Shown piece after piece: positions 42,853 through 57,145 of a stretch of 64,000 bases of DNA. Location of the stretch: contig PCTW01000054.1 in the NCBI GenBank assembly GCA_002786715.1, forward strand, positions 1 to 64,000, given 5' to 3'. Origin of the DNA: Bdellovibrio sp. CG22_combo_CG10-13_8_21_14_all_39_27 (GTDB lineage: Bacteria; Bdellovibrionota; Bacteriovoracia; Bacteriovoracales; Bacteriovoracaceae). Numbering within the stretch: the stretch's first letter is position 1; each line of letters opens with the position of its first letter. The notes below the pieces were generated by a model that worked only from the letters and a program-made list of their open reading frames with translations, was not told where the DNA came from and ran no database searches. The translations under genes were made by a program, and so were the position numbers.

Positions 42853-45617
42853 TGGCAGAAGCAATTTCCTTAGCGCTTAAGCGGTATAAGGAATTTGATC
42901 CACGGTACGTCGTTCTCATTCTGTTAGTGTCTTATAATGTTTTAGGCATAACAGTTTTAGGGTTTAATCGAAGTTGGGATCAAATTATTGTTACAGCTTT
43001 ATCAGCAGTTTTACTTCAAAGCTTCTATGATATAACTTTCAAGGGTCGCGTAAATGCGGCCCTCTCTGCTTTTATTACCAGCATGGGGCTGTGTATTCTT
43101 TTAAACTATGGGCACAGTCTTTATTACCCTTTAGTTCCAGTTTTCTTTGCCATTTCTAGTAAATACTTCTTTACCTTAAGAGGTCGTCATACCTTTAATC
43201 CTGCTCTGATGGGAGTGGTGTTATCTCTTCTTATCACCCAAGATTTTATTTCACCTGCTCCGGCCTATCAGTGGAACGGAATAGGAGCTTTCGGAATCTT
43301 TATTGCTATGCCAGCGATACTTTTTTTCATGCCCAAAATTAATCGCACACCCTTGGTTCTAAGCTTTTTGGGTGTTTTTACTCTTCAAATTATTTTACGC
43401 TCAATCCTTATTAAACATTATTTACCTTTTAATACTCTTTTCTTTGGAACTTTGACTTCGCCACCCTTTTTCCTTTTTACCTTTTTTATGATTACCGATC
43501 CGGCAACTTCTCCGAATGGAAAAAAAGACCAGATTATTGCTGGAAGTGTAATCGCCTTGTTGGATCTCATGTTCCATCTGGTGCAAAGCTATCATACTTT
43601 TTTCTACGCTGGCGTTAGCTTTGGGATGTGGCGTTTCCTAAGAGGGCATTGGTTAGAGTCAAAAAAATCTGATTCTTTGGGGCAGTATCTTGAGAATTCA
43701 TTCATTGAGACTGGATATTATAGAAAAATGCTGCTGATTTTAGGAATTGGTTTTGGTGGATATTTTGTTCACCATTTCATTCTCGAAGATCATTGGGGCA
43801 AAGTTGAAACTCACTTTCAATTTGAACAATTGAATCCTTCTCAAACTGGTCTTCATTTTGAAAAAGGGGAAATTCTCGATTCAGTAGACCCAAGAGTTCA
43901 GCACATGGGGAAATGGATTTTAGCGATTACCGATGGAATTGCAGTGGGCGATATTAACCAAGACGGACTCCAAGATATATTAATGACCAATGGTCATAAA
44001 AGTGCCAAAGATAGAGCGGCTTTATTTCTCAATAAAGGTGACTTTAAATTTGAACGATATCCATTACCTGAAGTTTCAGAACGAGTATCCGATTTTCACA
44101 AATATGGTGTTGCTTCCAATGCTATGTTTGTCGACTATGACAACGATGGGGATCTCGATCTTTACATGACTTATGCTTTTGGTAAGGAAGGTTCTTCTCG
44201 CTTGTTTAAAAATGGCCTTTCAGAGACCGGTAAAATCGATTTTAAAGATGTTACCGATGAGTTGGGACTCAATATTTTCACCAATGCCGCCGCCGCCAAT
44301 TGGCTCGATTTAAATAGAGACGGCAAGCTTGACTTGATCATCGGAAATACAATTTCTACCTATTTACCTGATTATAAAGTACCTACAAAATTAGATTTCT
44401 TTTCACTCCCCAAAGCCGAATATGAAGGCGACGTTAGAATGTTTAATTTTATGCACGATTCTTGGCATATGGCGAACAACGGAGCGGTCAATCCTTTATT
44501 TGTTCAGCAGGATAGCGGTTTTAAAAAATTAGATGAAGTTGCCTTAAATATGTCTGAAACTCGTTGGACTATGGCGATTGGAACAGCGGACTTTAATCAA
44601 GATGGTTGGACAGATCTTTATATGGCCAATGATTTTGGACCTGATGATTTGTATTTAAGTAAAAAGGGTGAAAGCTTTGAGAATATCAAAGGGGATATGT
44701 TTGGAACAATCGGAAGAGATACCTATAAAGGGATGAATGCAACGATCATTGATTTTGATCAAAATGGATGGATGGATATGTATGTCAGCAATGTCCATCA
44801 TGCACTCCAGGCCGAGGGGTCTTTACTTTGGAGCTTTAGGCCCAATCCTGAAGACAGTTTTCACCCCATTATCGAGGAGAAGGCAACTTACACTGGCGCC
44901 ATTAATGAAGATCGTTTTGGATGGGGGGCCGGTGCTGGTGATTTCAATAATGATGGATTGATAGATTTAGCTCAGGCCAATGGTATGGTTGATGATGCCT
45001 TTGATAAAAAATTCGATAAGTGTCCAGACTATTGGTACATCAATGAAAAAATTGCGAGGTCTCCTCCTCAGATACATCGTTACATCAATAATTGGGGTGA
45101 CATTCGAGGAACCTGTATTCATGGTCATGAAAAAAATAAGCTTTATATGAATCGAGGCACTGATCACCATCCTCAATTTGTCGATGTCGCTGATACTATT
45201 GGCATGGATCAAAAAGGGAATTGGCGAGGAATGGCCGTCGCAGACTTTGATAATGATGGAAGATTAGATCTCATCGCGACAAGTTTGTATCGCGATCCTT
45301 TAGTTTTTCATAATAAGAAAACTGATTTTGAAGGGAACTGGATTGGTTTAGATATTGTATCAACAAAGAGTGAGTGCAATAGGGAAGCTGTTGGTTCTCG
45401 TGTCATTGTCCAGTTTTGGGATTCGACCGGAGTGCTCAAGCGATTAGTTCAAGAGAAAGTGGTGGTTAATGGTTTTTCTGCTCAGTCTGATCGAAGACTC
45501 CATTTTGGACTCGGTCCCAATGTCAAACTAGATAGAATCATCGTTAATTGGTGTGGCAAAGAGTTAAAAGAATACTCAGCTTTCTCAATTAACAAATATC
45601 ATCAAATTGCATACTAA
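42852..45617 (+). CDS. RnfD/NqrB-like membrane domain fused to FG-GAP repeats and ASPIC/UnbV
   Basis: Residues 1-300 are a polytopic domain resembling RnfD/NqrB: HTFNPALMGVV matches the FNPA motif and FMITDPATSPNGKK the TDPxTSP motif next to which NqrB/RnfD carry a flavin-bearing threonine. Residues about 355-800 hold seven FG-GAP/VCBS repeats with DxDxDG calcium loops (DGIAVGDINQDGLQDI, VDYDNDGDLDLYM, NWLDLNRDGKLDLI, ADFNQDGWTDLYM, IDFDQNGWMDMYV, GDFNNDGLIDLAQ, ADFDNDGRLDLIA). The C-terminus (about 820-920) is ASPIC/UnbV (AVGSRVIVQF, RLHFGLG). FG-GAP/ASPIC proteins are usually secreted; here the domain is anchored by an inner-membrane redox-like module, so it should project into the periplasm. 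The start overlaps the previous stop. Confidence 0.8.
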   Translation: MAEAISLALKRYKEFDPRYVVLILLVSYNVLGITVLGFNRSWDQIIVTALSAVLLQSFYDITFKGRVNAALSAFITSMGLCILLNYGHSLYYPLVPVFFAISSKYFFTLRGRHTFNPALMGVVLSLLITQDFISPAPAYQWNGIGAFGIFIAMPAILFFMPKINRTPLVLSFLGVFTLQIILRSILIKHYLPFNTLFFGTLTSPPFFLFTFFMITDPATSPNGKKDQIIAGSVIALLDLMFHLVQSYHTFFYAGVSFGMWRFLRGHWLESKKSDSLGQYLENSFIETGYYRKMLLILGIGFGGYFVHHFILEDHWGKVETHFQFEQLNPSQTGLHFEKGEILDSVDPRVQHMGKWILAITDGIAVGDINQDGLQDILMTNGHKSAKDRAALFLNKGDFKFERYPLPEVSERVSDFHKYGVASNAMFVDYDNDGDLDLYMTYAFGKEGSSRLFKNGLSETGKIDFKDVTDELGLNIFTNAAAANWLDLNRDGKLDLIIGNTISTYLPDYKVPTKLDFFSLPKAEYEGDVRMFNFMHDSWHMANNGAVNPLFVQQDSGFKKLDEVALNMSETRWTMAIGTADFNQDGWTDLYMANDFGPDDLYLSKKGESFENIKGDMFGTIGRDTYKGMNATIIDFDQNGWMDMYVSNVHHALQAEGSLLWSFRPNPEDSFHPIIEEKATYTGAINEDRFGWGAGAGDFNNDGLIDLAQANGMVDDAFDKKFDKCPDYWYINEKIARSPPQIHRYINNWGDIRGTCIHGHEKNKLYMNRGTDHHPQFVDVADTIGMDQKGNWRGMAVADFDNDGRLDLIATSLYRDPLVFHNKKTDFEGNWIGLDIVSTKSECNREAVGSRVIVQFWDSTGVLKRLVQEKVVVNGFSAQSDRRLHFGLGPNVKLDRIIVNWCGKELKEYSAFSINKYHQIAY

Positions 45618-45637: not shown

Positions 45638-47536
45638 TTAAATTTTATTTCTCTCTGAGAAAAAGTTAAGTGGTTGTTTGACGTCGACCACGCCTCCACC
45701 TTTTGGTTTTGGAAATTCAATTAAGCGCAAGACATTGGCCATACAACCGCTACCTGTTGCTGAGAATTGAGCACTTTTTGATTTAATGGCGACCTTGGTT
45801 ACTCCACCATTAGATTCAATTCTAAAGTTCAAATCTACAACACCTTTGAGTTCCTCGTTACGAGTGAGCTCTTGCTGATAACAATGTCTAAATTGCGGTA
45901 AATATTCTCTTAGAATCTTACGTAGAAGTTCTGGATCCATTGAACCTAAAACAACAGTCTTTGGATCAGTGTAAGTTGTATCAATTCCTTGTTTACTGGC
46001 CAAACCTTTTGTCCCTGAAGAACTATCAAAGTTTCCTGTGGCATCTGAACCCATGGTTCCAACATTGCTTGAAACATTGGCCTTAAGAGCACTATCGGAT
46101 TGTGCTTTTACAGCTCCAATCCCATTAGTCGAAGCAATTGATCTTGAATTCTTAACTTGAGTCGGAGCTAAGCTTTTTGAACTTGAAGAGAGAGAGGCTA
46201 AAGTTTTCTTAAGATCAAGCTTATAGCCTTTAATCGTCGGTGCAGATTCAACAGGCTTCGTTTGAGCAGGCGCTGGAGCAGGAGCTGGTTGCTCGGCCAT
46301 CTTCTTATCAACTTTTTTCTGGTCAGGTGATTTTTTTGCCATTTTTACATCAGGCTTTTTCTGATCTTCTGCTTTTACGCCAGTGTCCTTGTCCTGACTA
46401 TCTGCAACTGAACTCGATTTTACTTCAGAAGGTTGCTTTGCCTGAATCGCTCTTCGATAGATTACAGCAATTTTCTTTTCTGGTTCTTGTACACTTGTGT
46501 CAATCAAAAGGAGAAGGAGGAAAATCGCCATTAAACCTGAGAAAAACTTCGCTGATTGCTTTTGAAATTCACGGTCGCGACCAAAGAACGGAGCTGGACG
46601 CAAATGAGGAGGTCCTTCTACTTGCTCAACGACAACTTGTACTGTTTTATAGTTGAAGACCAAACGATCTTCATGAGAAATTGAAATAGAAGCTTTGCCA
46701 TTAAAAGGATCTACTTGTCTTGAAGTCGCATTAATACATTCCATTCCTGGAATTGAGAACACCTCAACATCTGTCCCCATTACTTTAACGAAAGGTAAAT
46801 CTTCATCGCTCTCAAGACTTGGAAGATTGACAACATTTTCTTTATGAGAAAAAGGAGATATGAGATAAGTTTTATTTTTGATAGGTAAAAAATCAATTGA
46901 GATAACTGAGCCCATAGATAACGCTGTTACTTGAACAGCATTTATATTATTGGCCTTGGTAATAGGAATAATATCCTTTTTCTCATCATCAAAATCAACA
47001 AATTGTTGTTGCGCGAGATCAGCAGTGAATGCAGGTACTTCTAAAGTGGGCTCAAAAGATTCTTCGGCAAACATGATATCGCAATATTCACCATCAATAA
47101 CAACTAGCCCTGGGACTGGAGGAAGCTCTGATGGAAGATCATCAATTTTTGATTTTTGAAGAACGACTACTTTGGCATCTGTATCTTCGATTTCAACTTC
47201 GCCTTTTTCGAGCTCAACAAAACTTTCTTCGATTGAAAATTCAATTGGTCCAAATCGTAGACAATCTCCATGTGAAAAATATGTTTGTTTAACGCGCTCA
47301 CCATTTATTGAAATACCATTGTCAGAATCAAGATCGATAATTTTTCCACCATTTTCATCAACAGTTATAAAGGCGTGGTAATGTGAAATATGATCATCGG
47401 CTACACAAATATCTGCTCCCTCGAAACGACCGAGCAACATCTTCTTTTTTGTGAGCTCAAAAGAATATTGGATCTCGCCATTTTTATAGCTTACCAACTT
47501 AAATCTTTTTGCTTCTTTAGGTCTTAAGTTTAGCAC
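45638..47536 (-). CDS. gltG: GltG-like FHA and TonB-tail protein of the Agl-Glt machine
   Basis: FHA domain at about 25-105: LLGRFEGADICVADDHISHYHAFI carries the GR...SH core that binds phosphothreonine. One TM at about 330-346 (FSGLMAIFLLLLLID). A Lys/Pro/Ala-rich linker (about 360-430) could cross the periplasm. The C-terminus (about 540-628) is the AgmX/PglI TonB-like tail: LPQFRHCYQQEL, LNFRIESNGGV and GCMANVLRLIEFPKPKGG with its paired cysteines. In Myxococcus GltG links the inner-membrane AglRQS motor to the outer parts; the same is expected here. Last gene of the cluster. Confidence 0.88.
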   Translation of the reverse strand: MLNLRPKEAKRFKLVSYKNGEIQYSFELTKKKMLLGRFEGADICVADDHISHYHAFITVDENGGKIIDLDSDNGISINGERVKQTYFSHGDCLRFGPIEFSIEESFVELEKGEVEIEDTDAKVVVLQKSKIDDLPSELPPVPGLVVIDGEYCDIMFAEESFEPTLEVPAFTADLAQQQFVDFDDEKKDIIPITKANNINAVQVTALSMGSVISIDFLPIKNKTYLISPFSHKENVVNLPSLESDEDLPFVKVMGTDVEVFSIPGMECINATSRQVDPFNGKASISISHEDRLVFNYKTVQVVVEQVEGPPHLRPAPFFGRDREFQKQSAKFFSGLMAIFLLLLLIDTSVQEPEKKIAVIYRRAIQAKQPSEVKSSSVADSQDKDTGVKAEDQKKPDVKMAKKSPDQKKVDKKMAEQPAPAPAPAQTKPVESAPTIKGYKLDLKKTLASLSSSSKSLAPTQVKNSRSIASTNGIGAVKAQSDSALKANVSSNVGTMGSDATGNFDSSSGTKGLASKQGIDTTYTDPKTVVLGSMDPELLRKILREYLPQFRHCYQQELTRNEELKGVVDLNFRIESNGGVTKVAIKSKSAQFSATGSGCMANVLRLIEFPKPKGGGVVDVKQPLNFFSERNKI

Positions 47537-47546
47537 TGCTTAATCC

Positions 47547-48431
47547 TCATTTCTTGGGCTTCGATTTTTCTTCCGAAGCGACCTTTCTTAATTCTATTTG
47601 TCTAAGCTTTTCTTTTTTTAACTCTTCAGCTTTCTTGGCCGCTTTTCTGAGCTCAAGATTTAGTTCTTTTACCTCTCTCGAGTCGAAAAATGCCACTTGA
47701 TGAAGGACATCAACTGCATCTTGTGGGTTATCGAGAAGGTAAAGGCAAAAGGCTTTGTAGGTTTTAACTTCTTCTCTTTCTGGAAGTTTTGTTAAAATTC
47801 CCAGTGCTTTATCGATTTCGTCATCATAAATGTGCTTGAGTGCTCGAGTAAAGAGTAGGTCAGGATCACTAGGAGATCTTCTCGATAAGTATGAATAATC
47901 TTTTTCAAAGACATCAAACCATTCTTCTTGAAGTGCTAAGTGAAGACGATTATATCTGGCAGATTGATTTCCGAGTTGAATGGCTTCGCCAAAAAGATCA
48001 AATGCTTTTTGTATATGACCCAACTTCATAAAGATGAGGGCCATGTTGTTCTTCATGGTTCCTAAAGTAGCTTGGTCTTTATTTGAAACTAGCGATAATC
48101 CTGTTTCCAAGTAGAATTGGGCTTTTGCGAATTCAGCCTTGCGAATATAGCATACGGACATTGAGTTCCAGTAGCTCGGATCTTTTCTTCTGGTATTAAG
48201 CTGCGATCTTAAGATCTCTAGTCCCTTATCAATTTTGCCCTGATAACACTTTACCACTCCTGAGTATTCAGATTGAGAAGAAAGCTGCTCGAGCGCATTG
48301 GAAGATAATCTTTGAAAGGATTCTACTGCTAGCAAGTCTTTATCTGAGTTGAGCACACGAGCTGAATCTCGGCTTCCTGTTGCACAGGAGTAAATAAATA
48401 AAAGTGGTAGAATTGTTAAGAGCTTCTTCAT
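47547..48431 (-). CDS. gltE: GltE-like TPR lipoprotein
   Basis: Lipobox IYSC after a short signal, then about eight helical pairs with TPR spacing (CYIRKAEFAKAQFYLETGL, NNMALIFMKLGHIQKAFDLFGEAI, LFTRALKHIYDDEIDKALGIL). Ends in a basic Lys/Glu coiled stretch (KAAKKAEELKKEKLRQIEL). Fits GltE/AglT-type TPR lipoproteins that scaffold the periplasmic side of the Glt complex. The start overlaps the GltD-like stop by one base (TAATG). Assignment rests on operon position and TPR plus lipobox; individual identity with GltE is likely, not certain. Confidence 0.72.
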   Translation of the reverse strand: MKKLLTILPLLFIYSCATGSRDSARVLNSDKDLLAVESFQRLSSNALEQLSSQSEYSGVVKCYQGKIDKGLEILRSQLNTRRKDPSYWNSMSVCYIRKAEFAKAQFYLETGLSLVSNKDQATLGTMKNNMALIFMKLGHIQKAFDLFGEAIQLGNQSARYNRLHLALQEEWFDVFEKDYSYLSRRSPSDPDLLFTRALKHIYDDEIDKALGILTKLPEREEVKTYKAFCLYLLDNPQDAVDVLHQVAFFDSREVKELNLELRKAAKKAEELKKEKLRQIELRKVASEEKSKPKK

Positions 48432-51400
48432 TATGGATTACCTCCCATATCGGAAGTTGTCACCATAAGGTTAGCTGGATGACGAATCTGAAAGTTTCGA
48501 ACTTTCTCACCGGAAGGGGTGAAGAACTTATGGAATTCAGACAGTAGTGGAGCTTTCATCACTTTTTGAGCATTTCTAAAGTGCTTATTTTTCTCTTTTA
48601 TAAGACCGTCTGCTAGACCAGCAAGCTGCTCTTTAAATCCAGTCACATATTCATCAGGCATGCCAATGGGAGTAAATTCTTTAATTGAAGTAATGGCTGC
48701 TTCATAAGAATCAATAATATTAATGTAAGTGGCAGGCATGTAATAAGGGTGGCCGGTTTTAATCAATTGCTTTGATTCTTTAATAAGAAGGGTGAGTCTT
48801 TCAATTTTGGCTTGGAGTTCTTGAGTGAAAAGCTCTTCATTAAAAGGCTTACTTGAAGTGAATCTAGCAAAAGATTGAGGATTCCAACTTTTTTGATATG
48901 AATGGTAATCATCTGCCCACACCAGTTCATTATTAATGTCCTGACTTGAAAGAGAAGACTTCGATCTTTCTCTCATCATTTTCCAAGTCATTTTTTCTAA
49001 GTTCGAAAGGTTGTGCTCTTTTGCATCCCAATAGTAAGAAACAAGAGCGGTATTGAAAAGATCCTTAAATTCCTCTTTTGACTGAAACTTATTATAGAAA
49101 GAAAAGAGTCCCTTATAATTTCTGTTTTGAGCAAAGTGAGAGGCAAGTCCCAATTCCGTTTGCGAGATTTTACTTGCGCTAATTCCACATTTGCCTGATT
49201 TTGACATGAATTTTTGGTCAAATGACTCTTCTTTCGAAAGAACATTCGCTTTAACAATGATTTCGTAAAGTTCATTTTTGTTCTTAAACTTTTCAGAGCA
49301 AAACTTATTGAAGTAATATTGTCCATTGTCCACTGCAGTGTCGAGATCTTGGAGTAAAACAAGTTCTTGAACAAAAGCGAAAATCTTTGGAGATAGTTTT
49401 AATGCCTCTTTCTTTTCAAAGTGTTTAAATGATGCCTTAAACCACTCTGAACTAGTTTTCACATCTTGTAACTGAAGTGCGAGTAGGGCCGCATTAAAAG
49501 CAGCATTGGCCTTAATTTTGGAAGGATATCGCTTATCTTCATATAAGGACAAATAACCTTTAATAGCTTCAGACTTGTTTCCTTCTTTCTCCATTTTTTG
49601 AAAATTTTCAAAGAGAATTCCACCAAGAATGACTGTGGCTTTCTCAATCGTCGGTTTATCAAAGCTGAGATAGCCTGTATTCATTTTGTTGATCCAAATC
49701 GCTAGCGAGTTTGAATCCTTTTGCTTAACATAATGATCAATTACTTTAGAGAGCATTGCTCTTTGTGATTCGCCATCTTCTTTAAAAGTAACTCTATAAC
49801 GTTCAATGACATCCAAAGTTTCAGAAATTTCTTTTTTCTCAAATCTCAGGTTATAAAGTTTTTGAAAAATGAGACGGCTTCTCTCTTCTTTTGGCCATAG
49901 ATTGAGATGGTTTTCGTAAGCATAGAGAGTATTTTCTCTAGCTTCAGTGGGCTTAAATTTTGCATTTTCTAAGATAACTAATAAAGCATCCATAGTTTTT
50001 CTTTGAAGCTTATCCATCTTCTCAAGTTCTTCGGCAGTTAAAGTATCTTTGGAAACGAATTTAGGATTCTTCGCGTGCTCTTTTTTACTTGCAATATACT
50101 TTTCATGCTTGGATTTTGAAAACTCAAGCGCTCCTTTGTAGGCATCAAAAGCTTTAACCAGTTCGGCTACTGAAAACAATGTCTCACCTTGAAAATAACG
50201 ATAGCTATCAGATTCTCTTTCATCGAGAGCTTGGAGATAATCAAAATAGTCTATAATGTCATTAAGTTTGCTAGGCTCATAATCAACAGATGTGAATCTT
50301 TTGTTCTTTGAAAGATCCAACTGGAGAACGCCAGTTAAAGATTTGATTTTCTCAACGGCCTCAAGTCTTGGTTCTTCTTCAAGAGGTTGCTTTTTATGAA
50401 GATTTGTAAGAGAAGCGACTGTTTCCTTGTACATGTCAAAACGTTTAAAATTTCGATAAAATTCCAATTCAGAAAGATGAATAGTCACTTGTTCTTTTCG
50501 ATTTTCTTTTGAAATGGCATTGCTTAGAGCACTTTTCATAATGTGCTTCACTTGCTCAAAGCTTCCATTGTCAGCACATTTACGCGCCATTCGAATCAAG
50601 TATTGACCTGGCTCAGGAGTCGCATCTAAATAGAATGAGACGCCTTCTTCAACTCTTTGAGCATAAACATGGAAGACCCCAATGGCTTCCAACACTTGAT
50701 CGCCAACGTTGATATAGGGAGCATTCTTTCCAACATTGAAAGCTTCCTTCATATAGTCGATAGCTTGATTGTAATTATTTAATTTAAAATGGCACCAAGC
50801 CGCATTCAATAAATGCTTGCTGTACCAATCATCTTTTTTGTTTACCAAAACATCATTGTAGTACTTGATGGCCTGAGGATATTTTTTCCCGTTGTAGTAG
50901 TATTCAGCAAGTGATGACTTAATGAGATGAATAAGAGGACTATCTGGACGTGCGAGTTTTAAAGATCGGTGAAGAAAGGGTTCAGTTAACTTATCATCAC
51001 CATAGTCTCTTGAATTCAGTGCAAGAGTATAATAGATCGCTGCATTGTCTCGATACTCTGGATAATTTTTAATCATGGCCATTCCATCTTTCATCACTTT
51101 GATGGCCAAATGCTTTGATTCTTCAAAAAATTTATCTTTGCCGTATTTTTTTCTCTCTTCAAAAGATGAGCTTAAAAAACGAGCATTTTCTCTTTCTTTT
51201 AAAAGCTTTATTCTTTCACTTTCCAACTCGAGTATTCGATACTTGAGACGAGGGGAGAGTCTTCCAAGAGAGACAATGGTTTTTCTCTCTTCTTCAATGA
51301 GATGCATGAGCTGATACCATTTAGGTGGCATCTTTGTATCCTTTGCGAGCGAATCAACATACTTCGTTGTTGATTTTTTAGACGCAGGACTACGCTTCGC

Positions 51401-51463
51401 TTTCTTTGAAGCTGCGTTTGCTGAAGCGAGGAGCGATAATGTGAGGATCAGAATGATCTTCAT
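48431..51463 (-). CDS. gltD: large periplasmic TPR protein, GltD/AgmU-like
   Basis: A 1010-residue secreted protein: signal peptide ends at ANAAS, followed by a strongly basic stretch (KKAKRSPASKKSTTK), then many TPR-like helical repeats (for example SSLAEYYYNGKKYPQAIKYYND, NAAWCHFKLNNYNQAIDYMKEAF, FSVAELVKAFDAYKGALEF). The C-terminus lacks a membrane anchor and ends VTTSDMGGNP. Matches GltD/AgmU in size class and position (between the motor genes and the TPR lipoprotein). Expected to bridge motor and outer-membrane parts in the periplasm. Confidence 0.72.
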   Translation of the reverse strand: MKIILILTLSLLASANAASKKAKRSPASKKSTTKYVDSLAKDTKMPPKWYQLMHLIEEERKTIVSLGRLSPRLKYRILELESERIKLLKERENARFLSSSFEERKKYGKDKFFEESKHLAIKVMKDGMAMIKNYPEYRDNAAIYYTLALNSRDYGDDKLTEPFLHRSLKLARPDSPLIHLIKSSLAEYYYNGKKYPQAIKYYNDVLVNKKDDWYSKHLLNAAWCHFKLNNYNQAIDYMKEAFNVGKNAPYINVGDQVLEAIGVFHVYAQRVEEGVSFYLDATPEPGQYLIRMARKCADNGSFEQVKHIMKSALSNAISKENRKEQVTIHLSELEFYRNFKRFDMYKETVASLTNLHKKQPLEEEPRLEAVEKIKSLTGVLQLDLSKNKRFTSVDYEPSKLNDIIDYFDYLQALDERESDSYRYFQGETLFSVAELVKAFDAYKGALEFSKSKHEKYIASKKEHAKNPKFVSKDTLTAEELEKMDKLQRKTMDALLVILENAKFKPTEARENTLYAYENHLNLWPKEERSRLIFQKLYNLRFEKKEISETLDVIERYRVTFKEDGESQRAMLSKVIDHYVKQKDSNSLAIWINKMNTGYLSFDKPTIEKATVILGGILFENFQKMEKEGNKSEAIKGYLSLYEDKRYPSKIKANAAFNAALLALQLQDVKTSSEWFKASFKHFEKKEALKLSPKIFAFVQELVLLQDLDTAVDNGQYYFNKFCSEKFKNKNELYEIIVKANVLSKEESFDQKFMSKSGKCGISASKISQTELGLASHFAQNRNYKGLFSFYNKFQSKEEFKDLFNTALVSYYWDAKEHNLSNLEKMTWKMMRERSKSSLSSQDINNELVWADDYHSYQKSWNPQSFARFTSSKPFNEELFTQELQAKIERLTLLIKESKQLIKTGHPYYMPATYINIIDSYEAAITSIKEFTPIGMPDEYVTGFKEQLAGLADGLIKEKNKHFRNAQKVMKAPLLSEFHKFFTPSGEKVRNFQIRHPANLMVTTSDMGGNP

Positions 51464-51465
51464 AT

Positions 51466-51969
51466 TTAAAAGTTTCCTTGGACAATGAATTTAAATTCTG
51501 GATAACCTGCTAATGCTGATGTGTGCATAACTTTTTTCATGACTTCATAAGGGATAGACTGGTCTAAAACTAAGTTAATCGTTTTCTTTTCTTCTGGCGC
51601 TTTTCCGTTTGCACTGGCGACAGTTCTCGATTGCTCTAACTCCTTTTTTTCCTTTTCTTTCTCTTTTAATAATTCATCATAAAGGATTTCTATTTTGTCT
51701 CCACTCGCTGATGCTTTGCCAATCTTATGATTGTTAATCCAAAGATCGTAATCCTTGCCTACTTGGACGATCACGGAAGCGTGGCCATAAGCTTCAGATT
51801 TTGATTTTGGGAGTTCAATTTTTTCAGCTACATCAAGAGTAAGATCGGAAGCGTTGTAACTTTGTAAAAGAAAAACGAGAAGAATTGTCAGAATATCGAG
51901 GAGGGAAGTAATGTCAACTTCCATTGGCTCTTTTTCTCTTTTCAATTTTTTAAATCTTTTCATTCTCAT
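51466..51969 (-). CDS. aglS: ExbD/TolR-like proton channel subunit, AglS-like
   Basis: One N-terminal TM (about 20-38) containing EVDITSLLDILTILLVFLL, with the membrane aspartate that carries protons in TolR/ExbD/MotB-like subunits. A periplasmic domain follows (about 50-167). A basic start (MRMKRFKKLKREKEP) faces the cytoplasm. A charged low-complexity insert KEKEKEKKELEQ lies in the middle. With the second ExbD-like gene and the TolQ homologue it forms the three-part motor of the Agl type. Which of the two ExbD genes is AglS and which AglQ is by order only. Confidence 0.8.
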   Translation of the reverse strand: MRMKRFKKLKREKEPMEVDITSLLDILTILLVFLLQSYNASDLTLDVAEKIELPKSKSEAYGHASVIVQVGKDYDLWINNHKIGKASASGDKIEILYDELLKEKEKEKKELEQSRTVASANGKAPEEKKTINLVLDQSIPYEVMKKVMHTSALAGYPEFKFIVQGNF

Positions 51970-51979
51970 AATCTATTTC

Positions 51980-52492
51980 CTACATTGTTTCGAAAATAAT
52001 CTGTTCAAAAAGCTTTCTCGTTTGTACCGTTGCGCCTTTGTCATTTTTTGTCACAATCGTAGGCTGATTCTTTTCTATTTCTCTACAGGCATCCATTACC
52101 CAAACAATTTTCTTGTAGTCTACATTGTTTTGAGGTTTGATGATGACTGATGTTTCATCAACATGATCTTTTTTAATTTCCATTAAAACTTTATTGATTT
52201 CCAGAATATTAGGTTCACCGTCTATAGCAGCGATTTTCCTAAATACGTTTCCATCGAGACCCGTTTTAACCACCACCTCTGTTTTGCTCACTTCAAGAGT
52301 TAAATTAAGAGGCTTTTTCTTGTCTTCTTCTTTTTCAGTAATTGTTTTAACAGCTGGTGCATCTGAGCCAATCTCATAGATTTGGAGGAACTGAGCTGAC
52401 ATCAGAAGAAAGAAAATAAAGATAAAAACCGCATCCATGATTGGAATGATGTTTGGTTTTACGATCTTATGTTTTTTACGTGGTATACGCAT
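51980..52492 (-). CDS. aglQ: ExbD/TolR-like proton channel subunit, AglQ-like
   Basis: Similar size to the downstream paralogue: basic N-terminus (MRIPRKKHKIVK), then PIMDAVFIFIFFLLMSAQF with the membrane aspartate in a single TM, then a periplasmic domain of about 120 residues ending in a globular fold (KDHVDETSVIIKPQNNVDYKKIVWVMDACREI). Aspartate in this position is needed for proton flow and torque in AglQ of Myxococcus. Twenty bases separate this start from the AglR stop, in one transcriptional unit. Confidence 0.8.
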   Translation of the reverse strand: MRIPRKKHKIVKPNIIPIMDAVFIFIFFLLMSAQFLQIYEIGSDAPAVKTITEKEEDKKKPLNLTLEVSKTEVVVKTGLDGNVFRKIAAIDGEPNILEINKVLMEIKKDHVDETSVIIKPQNNVDYKKIVWVMDACREIEKNQPTIVTKNDKGATVQTRKLFEQIIFETM

Positions 52493-52511
52493 CTTATTCC
52501 CCAGCTTTTAA

Positions 52512-53207
52512 TTATGCAGCTTCGCTATCTTCTTGTGGACGAACATGGTTCTTCTTTGTTCCCAAAAGATCGATGAGCTTGATTGAATATTCTTCAATTT
52601 CAGCAACAATTTTTTCTGATTTGTTTGCAAGTACGGCATGAACAACCATTAACGAAATAGCTGCTACTAGTCCGAGAGCTGTCGTGTTCATGGCCTTTGA
52701 AATACCCATGGCCAGAAGTTTGGCTTTTGATGCAGGATCAGCACCGGCAACTGCAGCGAACGACTCAATAAGACCTTGAATGGTTCCTAAAAGTCCTAAT
52801 AGAGTAGAGATGTTGGCGCAAAGACCAATATAGCTCATTCTCTTATCGATTCGTGGAACAACTTCTAGGACTGTTGCTTCAACCGCATCCATAATTTGTT
52901 CTTTGGTTTGATTGGCCCGTTTAAGAGCACTTTTCAAAACCATTGGTAAAAGAGCTTTGGAGTTTGAACAATGTTGAATCCCTTTTTGAACTTCATTACC
53001 AAGAACGTGCTTCTTAATAAGATTCATTAAAGACGATCCATCAATATCGTAAGCGAACATGCTTTTAACACGTTCAATGGCAATCGCTAGACCAAAGCAC
53101 CATACACCGGCGATGATCCACATGAAGATACCACCCTCGCTCATAAACATGGCAACACTCTTAATAAAACTCGGGTCTGTGGCCGCTTGAACCATCTGTT
53201 CTTCCAT
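52512..53207 (-). CDS. aglR: TolQ/ExbB/MotA-like motor subunit AglR
   Basis: A 231-residue inner-membrane protein with three TM helices (about 25-45, 130-155 and 167-192) and a large cytoplasmic loop (about 46-130). Signature MSYIGLCANISTLLGLLGTIQGL is the TolQ/ExbB second TM, and AMNTTALGLVAAI the third with its conserved Thr pair. Together with the ExbD-like subunits it should form the proton-driven stator. The family in gliding bacteria is AglR; nothing in the sequence excludes a Tol/Exb role, but TolA/TolB genes are absent. Confidence 0.85.
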   Translation of the reverse strand: MEEQMVQAATDPSFIKSVAMFMSEGGIFMWIIAGVWCFGLAIAIERVKSMFAYDIDGSSLMNLIKKHVLGNEVQKGIQHCSNSKALLPMVLKSALKRANQTKEQIMDAVEATVLEVVPRIDKRMSYIGLCANISTLLGLLGTIQGLIESFAAVAGADPASKAKLLAMGISKAMNTTALGLVAAISLMVVHAVLANKSEKIVAEIEEYSIKLIDLLGTKKNHVRPQEDSEAA

Positions 53208-53319
53208 ATCTCCTCCAACTAAAGTAGTCTGGTAAACTTATCGGGCATCCCCAGAATAAACTTGATTAAAAAAGTTGGCATGCAACCTTCTGTAATGACA
53301 AGCTTTTTCCTAAGGTTTT

Positions 53320-53583
53320 CTACCTTAAGTTCTTAATGTCCTCACGGATTTCAGGATTGAAATCATCCCGATCAAAAAGGGTCCGGCCAAAGATCTTCCG
53401 CTCACGTTCCTTAACTGATAAATCGCCGGGTGCAATGACTTCACCTTTAATCTCGAGGTCCCCGAGATCAAAGGTTTCGTATTGCTTATATTTTACGATA
53501 ACTTTCTCACCATTTTTATGAATCACTTCATCTTGAGACCAGGCATTGGAAGACAAGAGAAGGACTAAAAGAATTATTCTCAT
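53320..53583 (-). CDS. small secreted protein of the Glt cluster
   Basis: An 87-residue protein with signal peptide (MRIILLVLLLSSNAWS) and a short charged mature part: GEKVIVKYKQYETFDLGDLEIKGE, then RERKIFGRTLFDRDDF and a basic tail. No recognised family; it might correspond to one of the small periplasmic Glt proteins. Its start overlaps the stop of the TPR gene upstream by four bases (ATGA). A 112-base gap then separates it from aglR, the largest gap within the cluster, where an internal promoter could lie. Confidence 0.55.
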   Translation of the reverse strand: MRIILLVLLLSSNAWSQDEVIHKNGEKVIVKYKQYETFDLGDLEIKGEVIAPGDLSVKERERKIFGRTLFDRDDFNPEIREDIKNLR

Positions 53584-55040
53584 CGTCTTGCTCCTTGTAG
53601 AGATTCTTCTTTTGATTCAACTCTTTCGCAATTGCTTTTGAGACCAAAAGAATAATCTCCCAATTCATCTCCCCAAAATTCACCATCAAAGTGATAAAAA
53701 TGCTGATCTATTTTTCGATTAACATTTGAATAATCTCCTCGACTACGATCGGCTACAAGCTTTTCGTTTGAATAAAGGAGATCTCTCTTAAGTGACATCA
53801 CTTCTAGTTTGATATTAAACATTTCATATGAGAAACGGTGAATATCATTCACAAAGTCAAACATCTCTTTTTTAATATAATGATTCAAATGTTTCGTTCT
53901 CCAAGAAACGATTCCTTTCAATTCTTCAGTTAAAAGATTAACAAATGCAGAGCGTTTCTTTCTTTCACTTAATTGCTTAAACTCATTTTGAGCTTTCTTA
54001 TAGTTAATAAGATCGAGAGAAAATTTTACTTTTTTACGAGTTTGAGTAATGAGGTTTCGAATATAGGGATTCAAATGCTCTTGCTCGCGAATTGGAGAGA
54101 GCATCATTTTTAAAAAGAATGTTTGAGAATTCTTTTCCTTAAGAATAAATTTCTTCAAAGCATCTGACTGAGGTTTATAAACTTTGTAGTATTGATCGAC
54201 CATCACCATGGTGTCATCCCAGAGGCAAAGTCTAAAATAAGAGAGAGCAGACAATACTTCAGCCTCAGGAAAAAAATATGAAGTCAGAAGGGGGGACTTG
54301 TATGTGGTTAAAAGACCAAGGGTTCGGTTATAGTCTTTTAAATAATAACTAGTCCAAGCTTTCTCTAAGAGGAGATAAGGCCAGCGATAACTAGTCTTTG
54401 GAATTTCTTCATAAATGGCAAGAGCTTCTTCATATTTTTTGTGTCTAAAGAGTGAACGAGCTTTGTGAATAACACATGATTCTCTAATGATACCAAAGTA
54501 TCTCTCTAAGCGTTCTACTTTTGCTTCTTTCTCAATTTTTGAAGAAAGTTGGATGCAGCTTCCATAGGCTTGAATACTTTCATTATGCTTGCCTAGAATA
54601 TTATAAGCGGTACCTAACATGAGATAAGCTTCTGGTGTAAAACGGTGATCCTTAGGAAAATCTTTAAGGGCAGCAATGGCCTTGTTATATCTTTCGTAAT
54701 GAATGCTTTTTAAGCCCAAGATGAATCTCAAGGAAGGAGAATCTTTTTGATCGAGGATCTCATCACTCAATGTAAAAAAGCTCAATGTCCCAGTTTTTAA
54801 AATCAAAGTCTCCAACATATCTTCGAGCTCTGGAGTCATTACCTTGTCGGTTACTAAGTGTTCTTTGGCAAAGATGGCCGCAGAATAAAAAGCTTTGGAT
54901 TTGTATAACTCTTGCGCAACCAGAATATTGCGAAATTTAGTATTTTTACTAAAGTATATTTTTTCAGCTTTTACGAGATCAGCCTTTGCGACTGGAATCG
55001 CTAAAAAACTTAATAGTAATAGTGCGACTTTCAACTTCAT
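53580..55040 (-). CDS. secreted TPR protein, GltC-like
   Basis: Signal peptide ends AKA. The next 300 residues hold TPR-like repeats (AYLMLGTAYNILGKHNESIQAYG, ARSLFRHKKYEEALAIYEEI, LEKAWTSYYLKDYNRTLGLL), followed by a C-terminal helical part with little repeat character. 486 residues without membrane anchor places it in the periplasm. Order next to the barrel gene matches the Myxococcus G2 group, where GltC follows the barrel-type GltA/GltB; assignment as GltC is by position and fold. Confidence 0.65.
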   Translation of the reverse strand: MKLKVALLLLSFLAIPVAKADLVKAEKIYFSKNTKFRNILVAQELYKSKAFYSAAIFAKEHLVTDKVMTPELEDMLETLILKTGTLSFFTLSDEILDQKDSPSLRFILGLKSIHYERYNKAIAALKDFPKDHRFTPEAYLMLGTAYNILGKHNESIQAYGSCIQLSSKIEKEAKVERLERYFGIIRESCVIHKARSLFRHKKYEEALAIYEEIPKTSYRWPYLLLEKAWTSYYLKDYNRTLGLLTTYKSPLLTSYFFPEAEVLSALSYFRLCLWDDTMVMVDQYYKVYKPQSDALKKFILKEKNSQTFFLKMMLSPIREQEHLNPYIRNLITQTRKKVKFSLDLINYKKAQNEFKQLSERKKRSAFVNLLTEELKGIVSWRTKHLNHYIKKEMFDFVNDIHRFSYEMFNIKLEVMSLKRDLLYSNEKLVADRSRGDYSNVNRKIDQHFYHFDGEFWGDELGDYSFGLKSNCERVESKEESLQGARR

Positions 55041-55049
55041 TAAATCCTC

Positions 55050-55769
55050 TTAAAATGAAAAACCAACAGAAAAGATAACATCACCATTTGCACGCCACTT
55101 GTCTGTCTGCGCGCGATTAGGAAGTAGGGGGCCAGGAGCTTGGTAGGTCGTTCTTAGATAAGAAAGATCAACGTGCCATCTTTTGTTAACGTGAACGCGT
55201 ACACCCGTTTTTCCCAAGATTCCGGTATAGCTTTCTTTTCTATAGTTATCTGCTGTCGTTGTTGAAGCCACAGTGAGAGCATTTGAAGAAGTTTCAACCT
55301 TTCCTAAGCCTAGTCCAAAGTGCCAGTCAAAATAAATAATTTTATTAAAAGTATTTATTTTCCCGTAGAAAGGGGCCCATACTGCAAGTGCGCCATAAGA
55401 TTTCTCAAGCTGTCTTACAAAAGGAACAGACTGATTAATGCTCTGAAGACTTTGATAAGCATCGTTAAATTTATTTGAGTAACTATTGTACATAAGTTCT
55501 AGTGCCCATTCTTCGTTAAAGTAATAACCAGTCGAGAAATGAACGCCACTTGCGTCAGTATAGTCACTAGAGAGTCCGTAGATATAACCTAGTTGGGCGT
55601 AGACAGAGTGAGCTTTCTTATAAATTTTATTCTGAAGAACGTAGACTTTTTTATCTGGATCTAACCAAAGATAGTCGTACAAATCTTTCTCAGCCGCGAG
55701 GAGAGAAGATGGCCCGGCAATTTGCCAGGCCACCATCAGTAATATTGAGAGTTTTGCTAAAGTTCGCAC
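55050..55769 (-). CDS. outer-membrane beta-barrel protein, GltA/GltB/CglE-type
   Basis: The start is the GTG at 55769, preceded by GGAGG and overlapping the stop of the VWA gene (TAGTG); an ATG at 55787 lacks this site. Signal peptide to SSLLA. The mature part alternates strands with aromatic girdles: VYAQLGYIYGLSSDYTD, HFSTGYYFNEEWALELMYNSYS, WHVDLSYLRTTY, ending in VIFSVGFSF with terminal Phe as outer-membrane barrels need. Eight-stranded barrel size (about 210 residues). This type of barrel is shared by myxobacterial gliding proteins. Confidence 0.72.
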   Translation of the reverse strand: MRTLAKLSILLMVAWQIAGPSSLLAAEKDLYDYLWLDPDKKVYVLQNKIYKKAHSVYAQLGYIYGLSSDYTDASGVHFSTGYYFNEEWALELMYNSYSNKFNDAYQSLQSINQSVPFVRQLEKSYGALAVWAPFYGKINTFNKIIYFDWHFGLGLGKVETSSNALTVASTTTADNYRKESYTGILGKTGVRVHVNKRWHVDLSYLRTTYQAPGPLLPNRAQTDKWRANGDVIFSVGFSF

Positions 55770-56947
55770 TAATTGCCTCCAACACATTTTTGATAATATC
55801 CAACCACGATCGAACCTGCATTAGGGATAGCTGTTTGGTCAAACTTAACAACTCTGTTAACAGCATCGTAAGTCCATCCACTAGTTACAGCTTGTCCGTT
55901 TACAGTCACTTGAATTTGACTATTCAATGGAACACCTGAAAGTGGGAAACTATCAAGAAGGTTCAAGATCTGAGCACCAATGTCATTCAGTGTAGTGTAA
56001 AAGTCTTGGTGAATGTCAGAAACAGTACCACCAATAGCATTTGTAAAGTCAGTGTAACGTGTTCCAAGAGTTTCCCATTGTTTGTTAGGAATGATCTCAG
56101 TTGTTACGATTGAGTATGATTTTAAAAAACCGCTGTTACCTTTTAGTGCTTTAATACCATCCACGTAGTTTGATACAGCATTCGGAGATTGATCTTGCTC
56201 ATCAGATAAGTGAACGATAACCAAATAAGCATCTTGTCTCATCCAGCTTGCAGAATATCTATTTAAAAAGTCCTGTGATGTTTTTAAGCCCATCTCTGTA
56301 CCTGATCCGTTTGTTCCTACTTTTACCCAATTCTTAAAGTTGTTAAGAAAGGTCGCTTCATCTTGAGCAGCTGCTTGAGAAGTTAAAGCGTTAAGATCAC
56401 CACGGGCGATACCTGAATAATTACTTCTTCCATCAGTAGTTGTGATTCCCATTTTGAAATCCACGCCACGATTTAAGAAGTTACCAATGAAGGCTTCAAA
56501 GTTATAAGCGAGAGCATCTTGTTCATCACCCATTGAACCTGAGTTATCAATAACCCAAAGGATATCAACTTTAGCTTCTTGTGCTACGTTTTGAACAAAT
56601 GTATCTGATGCGTCTGTAAGTGTTCCGGTTCCACAAACACCTGGTTGTGGATCAGTCGTTCCGCCACCAGTTCCTGGATCAGTAGTTCCGCCACCAGTTC
56701 CTGGATCAGTAGTTCCGCCACCAGTTCCTGGATCAGTAGTTCCGCCACCAGTTCCTGGATCAGTTACTGTTCCACCTGTTGATGGATCGTCTGGAATTGC
56801 TGCTGGATCTTTTAGTTTATGATCATCAGGAACTCCCACGCCTTCGAGGAATTCTTTCTGATAAAATTCTTGCTGATTACAACCGGAAAGTGCGGCAATG
56901 AGCAGGATCAAACTTAAGTGTCTGTTGATCTTCGTTATGAATGTCAT
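55769..56947 (-). CDS. VWA-domain outer-membrane lipoprotein, CglB-like adhesin candidate
   Basis: Lipoprotein signal ends LSGC, then a disordered Gly/Thr/Pro linker and a von Willebrand A domain (about 120-340). VDILWVIDNSGSMGDEQD supplies the MIDAS motif DxSGS, and LVIVHLSDEQD the later acidic MIDAS residue. Late cysteines are few: one at GVCGTG near the domain entrance and KCVGGN at the very C-terminus. In Myxococcus the VWA lipoprotein CglB is the surface adhesin of Agl-Glt focal adhesions. Direct adjacency to the barrel gene argues the same role. I start at 56947, with GAGG upstream. Confidence 0.75.
   Translation of the reverse strand: MTFITKINRHLSLILLIAALSGCNQQEFYQKEFLEGVGVPDDHKLKDPAAIPDDPSTGGTVTDPGTGGGTTDPGTGGGTTDPGTGGGTTDPGTGGGTTDPQPGVCGTGTLTDASDTFVQNVAQEAKVDILWVIDNSGSMGDEQDALAYNFEAFIGNFLNRGVDFKMGITTTDGRSNYSGIARGDLNALTSQAAAQDEATFLNNFKNWVKVGTNGSGTEMGLKTSQDFLNRYSASWMRQDAYLVIVHLSDEQDQSPNAVSNYVDGIKALKGNSGFLKSYSIVTTEIIPNKQWETLGTRYTDFTNAIGGTVSDIHQDFYTTLNDIGAQILNLLDSFPLSGVPLNSQIQVTVNGQAVTSGWTYDAVNRVVKFDQTAIPNAGSIVVGYYQKCVGGN
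56658..56765 (-). repeat. four tandem 27-bp repeats in the VWA-protein linker
   Basis: Four back-to-back 27-base units (56658-56684, 56685-56711, 56712-56738, 56739-56765), nearly identical. They encode TDPGTGGGT repeats, about 36 residues, between the lipobox region and the VWA domain. The copies are so similar that copy number could vary by slippage and change linker length. Confidence 0.9.
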
Positions 56948-57117
56948 GGACAACCTCAATTAAGTGCCGGAACTCGCAATCGATAAGCCCATCAATTACG
57001 TGAGTGAGTAATAACTCTTTTCCGGTCTCGTCTTGGGTTTGCCTCAACTTACATTCAACTGCGTGCGGACGTACAACTCAAACCAAAAAGTCCTTTGACC
57101 TATTTTCTTATGTAGAA

Positions 57118-57145
57118 ATCATAACATCCTGACGTTTGACCTCAA
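57118..57145 (-). promoter_or_regulatory. probable promoter of the Agl-Glt cluster
   Basis: On the minus strand TTGAGG (57145-57140) and TATGAT (57123-57118) are separated by 16 bases, close to sigma-70 boxes. The predicted start of transcription lies about 160 bases ahead of the VWA gene start, leaving a leader. In the stretch 56960-57346 I see no other gene. Confidence 0.45.

Follow-up and report, generated by a model that had tools for sequence, protein, structure and literature searches.

Does the Agl-Glt locus of this Bacteriovoracaceae genome encode a pared-down gliding machine, the host's canonical one, or something more specialised? An earlier note, made from the letters of the window alone (the window is the whole stretch of 64,000 nucleotides analysed here), had proposed a minimal version of the Myxococcus focal-adhesion machine. 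The locus is neither a minimal version nor the canonical gliding cluster. The genome is 4.08 Mb in size. The host family, the Bacteriovoracaceae, is rich in predators.

The locus contains the parts of an Agl-Glt machine

We found ten open reading frames between positions 45638 and 56959 of the window, all on the minus strand and close or overlapping, as the earlier note had described. Intergenic gaps range from -19 to +19 nt, with the 112 nt between gltF and aglR as the sole larger spacing. The comparison with Myxococcus was made through NCBIfam models together with Bdellovibrio bacteriovorus HD100 and its published placement. From the 5' end, the genes encode:

55769..56947, minus strand: VWA/MIDAS surface lipoprotein (MIDAS adhesin model NF052240, 7.8e-19, below equivalog cut-off; CglD, 1e-7)
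55050..55787, minus strand: outer-membrane beta-barrel, OMP_myx_plus family, in a GltA/GltB-like position (TIGR04565, 4.3e-26, above curated cut-off; a match to this model does not discriminate between GltA, GltB and GltH)
53580..55040, minus strand: GltC homologue (NF033756, 1.2e-27, below equivalog cut-off)
53320..53583, minus strand: GltF/CglF-like protein, 87 aa (NF033764 (CglF), 0.0024 over the full length, below equivalog cut-off)
52512..53207, minus strand: AglR-like MotA/TolQ/ExbB motor subunit (PF01618, 8e-25; LLGTI and NTT motifs conserved)
51980..52492, minus strand: TolR/ExbD-like motor subunit 1, AglQ/AglS (PF02472, 8.5e-14; membrane Asp present)
51466..51969, minus strand: TolR/ExbD-like motor subunit 2, AglQ/AglS (PF02472, 1.2e-14; membrane Asp present)
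48431..51463, minus strand: periplasmic TPR protein in the GltD position, 1010 aa (its iterated profile also recruits the Bd0828-type GltD of HD100)
47547..48431, minus strand: TPR lipoprotein in the GltE position, 294 aa (its iterated profile recruits HD100 GltE, 3e-63)
45638..47536, minus strand: GltG, with FHA domain, one transmembrane helix and TonB-like tail (FHA, 2.7e-12; NF033760, 6e-35, below equivalog cut-off)

These matches bear out the earlier assignment of motor, periplasmic, outer-membrane and surface parts to one locus, including the TolQ-like AglR, two TolR-like subunits with membrane aspartates, the barrel and the VWA lipoprotein. The FHA plus TonB-tail description of GltG also held; its C-terminal tail matched the AgmX/PglI, GltG-type model above cut-off (NF033768, 2.7e-19). 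Of the TPR proteins placed in GltC, GltD and GltE positions, all are present and GltC was recognised directly. The GltD-position protein had no direct match to the Myxococcus GltD model, and the GltD and GltE assignments run through the HD100 homologues rather than directly to Myxococcus (HD100 GltE matches the GltE model at 2.4e-12). Two GltF/CglF paralogues in the same genome matched NF033764 at 2e-7 and 1e-9. Of 115 family genomes, 109 retain GltC, and both membrane aspartates are invariant across the window locus and its closest relatives (types A and B, below). Judged by homology, the Agl-Glt core complex (group B of Luciano 2011: AglR, AglQ, AglS, GltC, GltD, GltE and GltG) appears to be represented by an AglR-clade protein, two Asp-bearing TolR-like subunits and homologues of GltC and GltG.

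No model for GltH, GltI, GltJ or GltK, all Myxococcus components, matched within the locus; these are also missing from Bdellovibrio (PMC3169522). An MglA/MglB-like pair is present, which counts in favour of the machine proposed below. The gene order recurs in dozens of genomes, so it is not due to chance. The earlier note had contrasted the one-locus organisation with the three loci of Myxococcus. One-locus sets are nothing new: Bdellovibrio has four such sets (Bd0828-0838, Bd0412-0420, Bd1473-1483 and Bd2368-2377; PMC2797640), and in Geobacter and gammaproteobacteria the core genes lie in a single cluster (PMC3169522).

The genome itself has three Agl-Glt loci, which argues against a minimal version. 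Type A is the window locus. Type B is a canonical, Bd0828-like locus, split over two contigs, and type C is a further locus (C34).

A covarying leader element precedes the lipoprotein gene

What is new here is a leader of about 65 nt with a covarying helix, upstream of the VWA gene. That gene most likely starts at the ATG at 56947, which has a GAGG Shine-Dalgarno sequence, and not at the TTG at 56959. Two features lie upstream:

57027..57091, minus strand: predicted structured leader RNA element, ~65 nt, with a covarying outer helix around a duplicated GTTGNACGT core
57118..57145, minus strand: sigma-70-like promoter with extended -10 (TTGAGG-16-TATGAT, TG before the -10; the single-site count is not above chance)

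The outer helix has 12 bp, and compensatory changes were found at 12 of 12 pairs (0/500 shuffles). In the covariance model alignment there were 101 compensated cells, compared to 28 in shuffles, and an arm-swap permutation test gave 0/5000. RNAalifold found no pairs on a plain, unstructured MAFFT alignment since the arms are offset by 1-2 nt; the permutation test and the covariance model handle this offset. The copy in the window is a weak member of the family. It scored 31 bits (E 0.007) with covariance model R1 and 43 bits with model R2, for which it is one of the 60 training rows; lipoprotein leaders outside the training set scored 40-54 bits. Its minimum-energy fold alone was no better than shuffles, and single-sequence z-scores were modest and uninformative.

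The leader was restricted to Bacteriovoracaceae, and a comparison with Rfam 15 (E<=10) matched no described family worth naming. It appears to be an undescribed folded RNA conserved in the family. Among 70 family matches examined, 50 were 5' of the VWA gene and 9 were 5' of aglR; the leader also fronts a few other lipoprotein genes. The single transcript that the earlier note considered is at most a possibility; several relatives have a second promoter and leader 5' of aglR. No leader was found at type B loci or at Bd0828-0838.

Alternatively, the element could be a DNA operator with inverted arms for a regulator. The GTTGNACGT core is a direct repeat spaced ~18 bp apart, and both the blank RNAalifold result and the modest folding scores would fit an operator. 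We consider this unlikely: the sequence of the arms varies freely while their complementarity is retained, and transcription from a promoter-like site directly upstream should run through the arms. Such a site, with its -10 ending 10-29 nt upstream of the element, was present in 40 of 50 homologous leaders, compared to ~32% of shuffles. Promoter and terminator scans of the full operon gave nothing above chance. The right edge that the earlier note had given the locus, 57145, falls at the -35 of the promoter-like site. If this site is used, the type A mRNA would start a few tens of nucleotides before the leader RNA, with a predicted start near 57111, 7 nt beyond the -10.

Because the leader stands before the VWA gene, in many relatives also before aglR, and before other lipoprotein genes, adhesin, motor and lipoproteins would form one regulon. 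It is probable that in Bacteriovoracaceae structured leader RNAs of an undescribed class co-control the adhesin-bearing Agl-Glt machine and other lipoproteins. This placement suggests that a dedicated second-messenger or protein signal may switch a surface-adhesion programme.

A MIDAS lipoprotein gene is linked to the type A locus

We found that the VWA gene is immediately 5' in all type A loci that could be scored (67/67 named loci with upstream sequence; 17/17 in the first set). In contrast, it was 5' in none of ~20 type B loci. Only two relatives of the VWA protein are encoded in the genome, and both adjoin Agl-Glt loci.

The protein has a lipobox (LSGC) and, in an AlphaFold2 model, a disordered stalk and a small beta domain into which the VWA domain is inserted. 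The lipobox and the MIDAS residues (DxSxS, SDExDxS) are invariant over 16 homologues, whereas the stalk is hypervariable (88-215 residues between the lipobox Cys and the MIDAS). Foldseek searches with the model matched integrin beta-I and SpaC; a PDB sequence search by VWA profile gave no match. With its lipobox, its intact MIDAS and a beta-rich domain that is built from both ends and interrupted by the VWA domain, the modelled protein resembles the MIDAS adhesins Bd0875 and Bd1483 (PMC11003981). It differs from them in its long hypervariable stalk and its fixed linkage to an Agl-Glt operon. The match to the Myxococcus CglD model is weak. In M. xanthus, a VWA adhesin, CglB, is the load of the machine (PMC13104615).

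The load might instead be a polysaccharide coat or secreted polymer, since Myxococcus AglRQS also powers the paralogous Nfs complex, which handles spore-coat polymer (PMC3858216) and has the core set in common. We regard this as quite unlikely, as no genes for polysaccharide synthesis or export were found in the flanks and the invariantly linked gene encodes a MIDAS lipoprotein.

An adhesin load remains our preferred reading. Some relatives retain the VWA gene and leader beside a different, ExbBD-type motor, and therefore the partnership with AglRQS is not obligatory. There is a published parallel in Bdellovibrio: insertions in Bd1481 (aglR) and in Bd1483 (MIDAS), which encodes a VWA protein two genes 5' of aglR, caused the same partial defect in biofilm predation (PMC2277423). 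A bd1483 deletion had no defect in liquid predation (PMC11003981); a MIDAS protein encoded with such a motor may therefore be dispensable.

Type A is a paralogue of the canonical locus

In the AglR tree, type A forms a clade (100/99) whose sister is type B (95/97), separate from the Tol/Exb/MotA paralogues of the genome. A concatenated GltC+GltD+GltG tree also places type A as sister to type B. From these trees, we take type A to be a family-specific duplicate of the canonical Bd0828-like locus, a paralogue and not an orthologue. On the basis of both trees, we rejected the Bd0412-type and Bd2368-type loci of HD100 as type A orthologues.

The loci differ in layout. Type B and its HD100 orthologue Bd0828-0838, a candidate gliding locus, likewise hold the OMP, GltC, GltD, GltE, GltF, FHA-GltG, AglR and two TolR-like proteins in one locus. 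Unlike type A, they are without the VWA gene, and their order is OMP-C-D-E-F-G and then the motor, which is convergent in Bacteriovoracaceae. Type C and Bd2368-2377, which is upregulated at prey exit (PMC12546842), have an Agl-Glt set with a VWA lipoprotein, as type A does, but the VWA gene is 3' of GltC, GltG is without FHA, and the proteins fall in other clades. With Myxococcus, type A shares the AglRQS-type motor, homologues of GltC and GltG, candidate counterparts of GltD, GltE and GltF, an outer-membrane barrel and a VWA protein; in Myxococcus these are spread over three loci and a separate adhesin gene.

Could type A be an orthologue of Bd1473-1483, retained from a common ancestor? Both have a MIDAS lipoprotein gene 5' of aglR in one agl operon, and the VWA tree puts type A on the Bd1483 side (81/89). 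We find this very doubtful. The motor and GltC+GltD+GltG trees both place type A beside type B within the family, and the motor and Glt proteins of Bd1473-1483 belong to another branch. The gene orders are not alike: Bd1473-1483 has an extra gene between the VWA gene and aglR, and its OMP and GltC genes come last. Its TolR-like subunit 1 has also lost the membrane Asp.

An energiser of the TonB/Tol kind, for uptake or envelope stability with the VWA protein and barrel as receptor parts, is highly improbable: the ExbB/TolQ and ExbD/TolR folds, the TonB-like tail and the ExbBD-type motor substituted in some relatives would suit it, but AglR lies among Agl proteins in the tree, GltC, GltG and GltF homologues are present, and no TonB-dependent receptor, tolA, tolB, pal or ftsX partner was found in the locus or scanned flanking genes. 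The tree and the absence of partners, which the earlier note had also reported for tolA, tolB and ftsX, led us to reject Tol-Pal. That note would have abandoned its reading had AglR/Q/S fallen inside Tol/Exb proteins with no Glt homologues; AglR, the subunit checked, groups with Agl proteins apart from the genome's Tol/Exb/MotA proteins, and Glt homologues are there, so that objection falls away.

A model for the type A machine

Overall, we lean towards a second, specialised Agl-Glt machine with a MIDAS adhesin as its load, in a regulon under a leader RNA. Its gene content predicts a machine that spans the envelope, is driven by protons and is related to the gliding motors known from Myxococcus and Bdellovibrio. 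AglR and the two TolR-like subunits would form an inner-membrane proton channel motor that pulls on GltG by way of the membrane helix and the TonB-like tail that GltG extends into the periplasm. GltD, GltE and GltF would pass force across the periplasm, and GltC and the outer-membrane barrel would receive it. The load would be the co-encoded VWA/MIDAS lipoprotein, held on a flexible stalk at the outer surface; it may serve as an integrin-like adhesin that binds surfaces or prey and is moved or presented by the motor. We suggest that the canonical Bd0828-like locus was duplicated in the family ancestor, reordered, and joined to a MIDAS adhesin gene.

Here a single motor locus and a single adhesin gene have come to be paired during evolution, and the same genome offers a natural control in the sister locus, which has no such gene. 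It thus becomes testable which adhesin is driven by which motor, and to what end. The exchange of AglRQS for an ExbBD-type motor in relatives suggests that the Glt-adhesin half of the machine behaves as a portable module. The leader RNA would serve as a marker of the regulon and is possibly a new RNA class, and its additional lipoprotein targets are further candidate surface parts.

The type A locus is a one-strand Agl-Glt gene cluster that begins with a putative adhesin gene

We found that the Agl-Glt genes of the window form a single compact locus, here called type A. The domain content of its ten ORFs and their close or overlapping spacing confirmed the ten-gene, one-strand arrangement described in the earlier note. 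Neighboring genes overlap or are separated by at most 19 nt, except for a 112-nt gap 5' of aglR. The features are as follows.

45638-56959, minus strand: filled by ten ORFs, transcribed in the order VWA lipoprotein (putative surface adhesin), outer-membrane barrel (OMP), GltC, GltF/CglF-like protein (87 aa), AglR, two TolR-like proteins, GltD, GltE, GltG
Within it, minus strand: putative GltD, TPR protein of 1010 aa
Within it, minus strand: putative GltE, TPR lipoprotein
Within it, minus strand: GltG, FHA domain and TonB-like tail, last gene
57027-57091, minus strand: predicted structured RNA element (leader) of ~65 nt
57145-57118, minus strand: predicted sigma-70-like promoter; 57145 is also the right edge drawn in the earlier note

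ATG 56947, with GAGG directly upstream, is a more likely start of the VWA gene than TTG 56959. The flanking genes are unrelated (MMPL protein, RnfD-FG-GAP-ASPIC protein, HTH protein and hydrolase). One of them (42852-45617), convergent with gltG, encodes an NQR2/RnfD-like membrane domain fused to FG-GAP repeats and an ASPIC domain. The one-locus arrangement of the protein machine is already known from Bdellovibrio.

Type A is a specialised copy of the canonical locus

The window is contig C77 of a host genome of 4.08 Mb, which contains three Agl-Glt loci (types A, B and C). Type B lies partly at an end of contig C11 and partly at an end of C17, and it has no VWA gene. Its order, OMP-GltC-GltD-GltE-GltF-GltG with convergent motor genes, is that of Bd0828-0838 in B. 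bacteriovorus HD100, the locus rated nearest to Myxococcus aglRQS by Luciano et al. (PMC3169522). Type C (contig C34) has the gene order of HD100 Bd2368-2377, with the VWA gene 3' of GltC. In one type C-like locus (L087, genome G161), GltC is followed on its 3' side by a tandem array of four VWA lipoprotein genes.

In the AglR tree, type A (100/99) was sister to the type B of the family (95/97). Every Agl protein was separate from the Tol/Exb/MotA paralogues of the host genome, which bears out the Agl placement. A concatenated GltC+GltD+GltG tree (1969 columns) agreed: the A, B and A+B groups all reached full SH-aLRT support. As judged from these two trees, type A is a duplicate of the canonical locus that arose within Bacteriovoracaceae, and it is better called a specialised copy than the "minimal version" suggested earlier.

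GltC matches were present in 109 of 115 genomes of the family, usually at least two per genome. In a scan of named genomes with a profile built from 15 type A GltC proteins, the matches listed were from Bacteriovoracaceae, Bacteriovoracales, Halobacteriovorax, Bacteriovorax, or MAGs loosely assigned to Bdellovibrionales or Proteobacteria. Seven loci (L056, L061 (Bdellovibrio), L117, L167, L168, L170, L210) were motorless OMP-GltC-GltF sets distant from all AglR genes; in some, another barrel comes next.

The putative adhesin is fixed in type A and probably differs from the motor in origin

The VWA gene was directly 5' of OMP-GltC at 67 of 80 named loci. Of the other 13, eight were truncated by a contig end no more than 2.6 kb away, four were OMP-GltC-GltF sets with no motor and one was a type B locus. 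A VWA gene was absent from all of the roughly 20 type B loci, and a profile search of the whole host genome found only two VWA relatives, at the window and type C loci.

The VWA protein carries a lipobox and a variable, repetitive stalk of 88 to 215 residues, and its DxSxS and SDExDxS residues are invariant. In an AlphaFold2 model the VWA domain (pLDDT mostly >90) is nested in a small beta domain formed from both termini, and the stalk is disordered. Bd0875 and Bd1483 have been reported to share this architecture (PMC11003981). Foldseek matched the model to the pilus adhesin SpaC and to integrin beta-I domains (E about 1e-9); TM-scores were low, and the stalk accounts for this at least in part.

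In the VWA tree, type A fell on the Bd1483 side (81/89), distant from the 3'-VWA clade (100/98), while the motor groups with type B. Adhesin and motor therefore probably have different origins. In HD100, Bd1483 is two genes 5' of aglR (Bd1481). Transposon insertions in Bd1481 or Bd1483 lowered biofilm predation equally (36-38% vs about 70% in the parent; PMC2277423), and a bd1483 deletion mutant invaded prey normally in liquid (PMC11003981).

The motor has been exchanged in some relatives

Type A AglR retains the channel motifs, and both TolR-like subunits retain the membrane Asp. TolR-like subunit 1 in the HD100 Bd1473-1483 motor (Bd1480; L212:1844-2401) has lost this residue (LLAVMVKL), which the compared copies of types A, B and C keep.

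In about ten named Bacteriovorax-like relatives (L126, L152, L153, L154, L158, L159, L161 and others), an ExbB-like protein, a single canonical ExbD and a TonB-like protein of ~350 aa without FHA take the place of AglR, both TolR-like proteins and FHA-GltG. One swapped AglR grouped with an ExbB-like paralogue (100/95, AglR tree). These loci retain VWA-OMP-GltC-GltF-GltD-GltE and the RNA leader. Such a natural exchange points to a TonB-like contact through which the motor would drive the Glt-adhesin half.

A predicted structured RNA leader precedes the VWA gene

Aligned upstream regions of type A operons contained a conserved block about 90 nt 5' of the VWA gene. The block is bipartite, GTTGNACGT-N11-G[CT]A[CT]GTNNG, and scored >10 bits 5' of 47/54 VWA genes, compared with 5% of shuffles. 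Its flanking arms vary in sequence and keep complementarity. In an arm-swap test, which is independent of structure fitting, 59 non-redundant sites had a mean binding energy of -12.2 kcal/mol with matched arms and -7.9 with swapped arms (0/5000 permutations as good). In a covariance-model alignment of 60 sites, itself fitted to the structure, both sides varied at 12/12 helix pairs, 101 cells were compensatory, compared with 28 after shuffling (0/500), and pairing held in 88% of cells, compared with 40-55% when slid. The predicted structure is well supported. A sigma-70-like promoter ended 10-29 nt 5' of the element in 40/50 leaders, compared with about 32% in shuffles. Two loci (L163:7319-7370 and L191:7418-7469) also have a half-size element, with one GTNGNACGT core within a helix, a few hundred nt 5' of the full copy.

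The element matched in 56 of 110 family genomes and was not found in 1.2 Mb covering 63 loci of type B, type C or other families. Outside the family, one genome in the phylum sample matched, partially and near chance. The surroundings of 70 matches were read: 50 were 5' of a VWA gene, nine 5' of aglR (in the gltF-aglR gap) and 11 elsewhere, eight of these 5' of predicted lipoproteins, including a 216-aa family (L267, L271, L289). Lipoprotein sites outside the training set scored 40-54 bits with a second covariance model. A pattern search found two copies in the host genome, that of the window and one 5' of a 216-aa-family lipoprotein; the latter was weak by the second model (22 bits). Three leader-linked lipoproteins (L262, L279, L281) have a post-lipobox CNxxxF[FY]xxEE in common with the VWA lipoprotein, possibly a common surface-sorting signal. 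No Rfam family matched the element, and a non-exhaustive literature search found no published description.

Proposed function

By homology to AglRQS and GltG, AglR and the TolR-like proteins would be the motor and GltG the transducer; AglR-GltG contact was shown by two-hybrid in Myxococcus (PMC3169522). The VWA adhesin would be the load of the motor, given its invariant linkage and Myxococcus CglB (PMC13104615). By analogy with Bd1473-1483 mutants, the machine may be used on surfaces or prey, and the leader is a putative control element of the operon. recR, an MglB-like roadblock protein and MglA are in a row (G000:C45, about 229600-231400; L217), as reported for Bacteriovorax marinus (PMC3983030). 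The presence of MglA says little about gliding here, because MglA has been linked to predation in Bdellovibrio (PMC3983030). Two parts seem to be new: the duplicate specific to this family, with its fixed MIDAS adhesin, and the structured leader that ties the type A locus to other lipoproteins.
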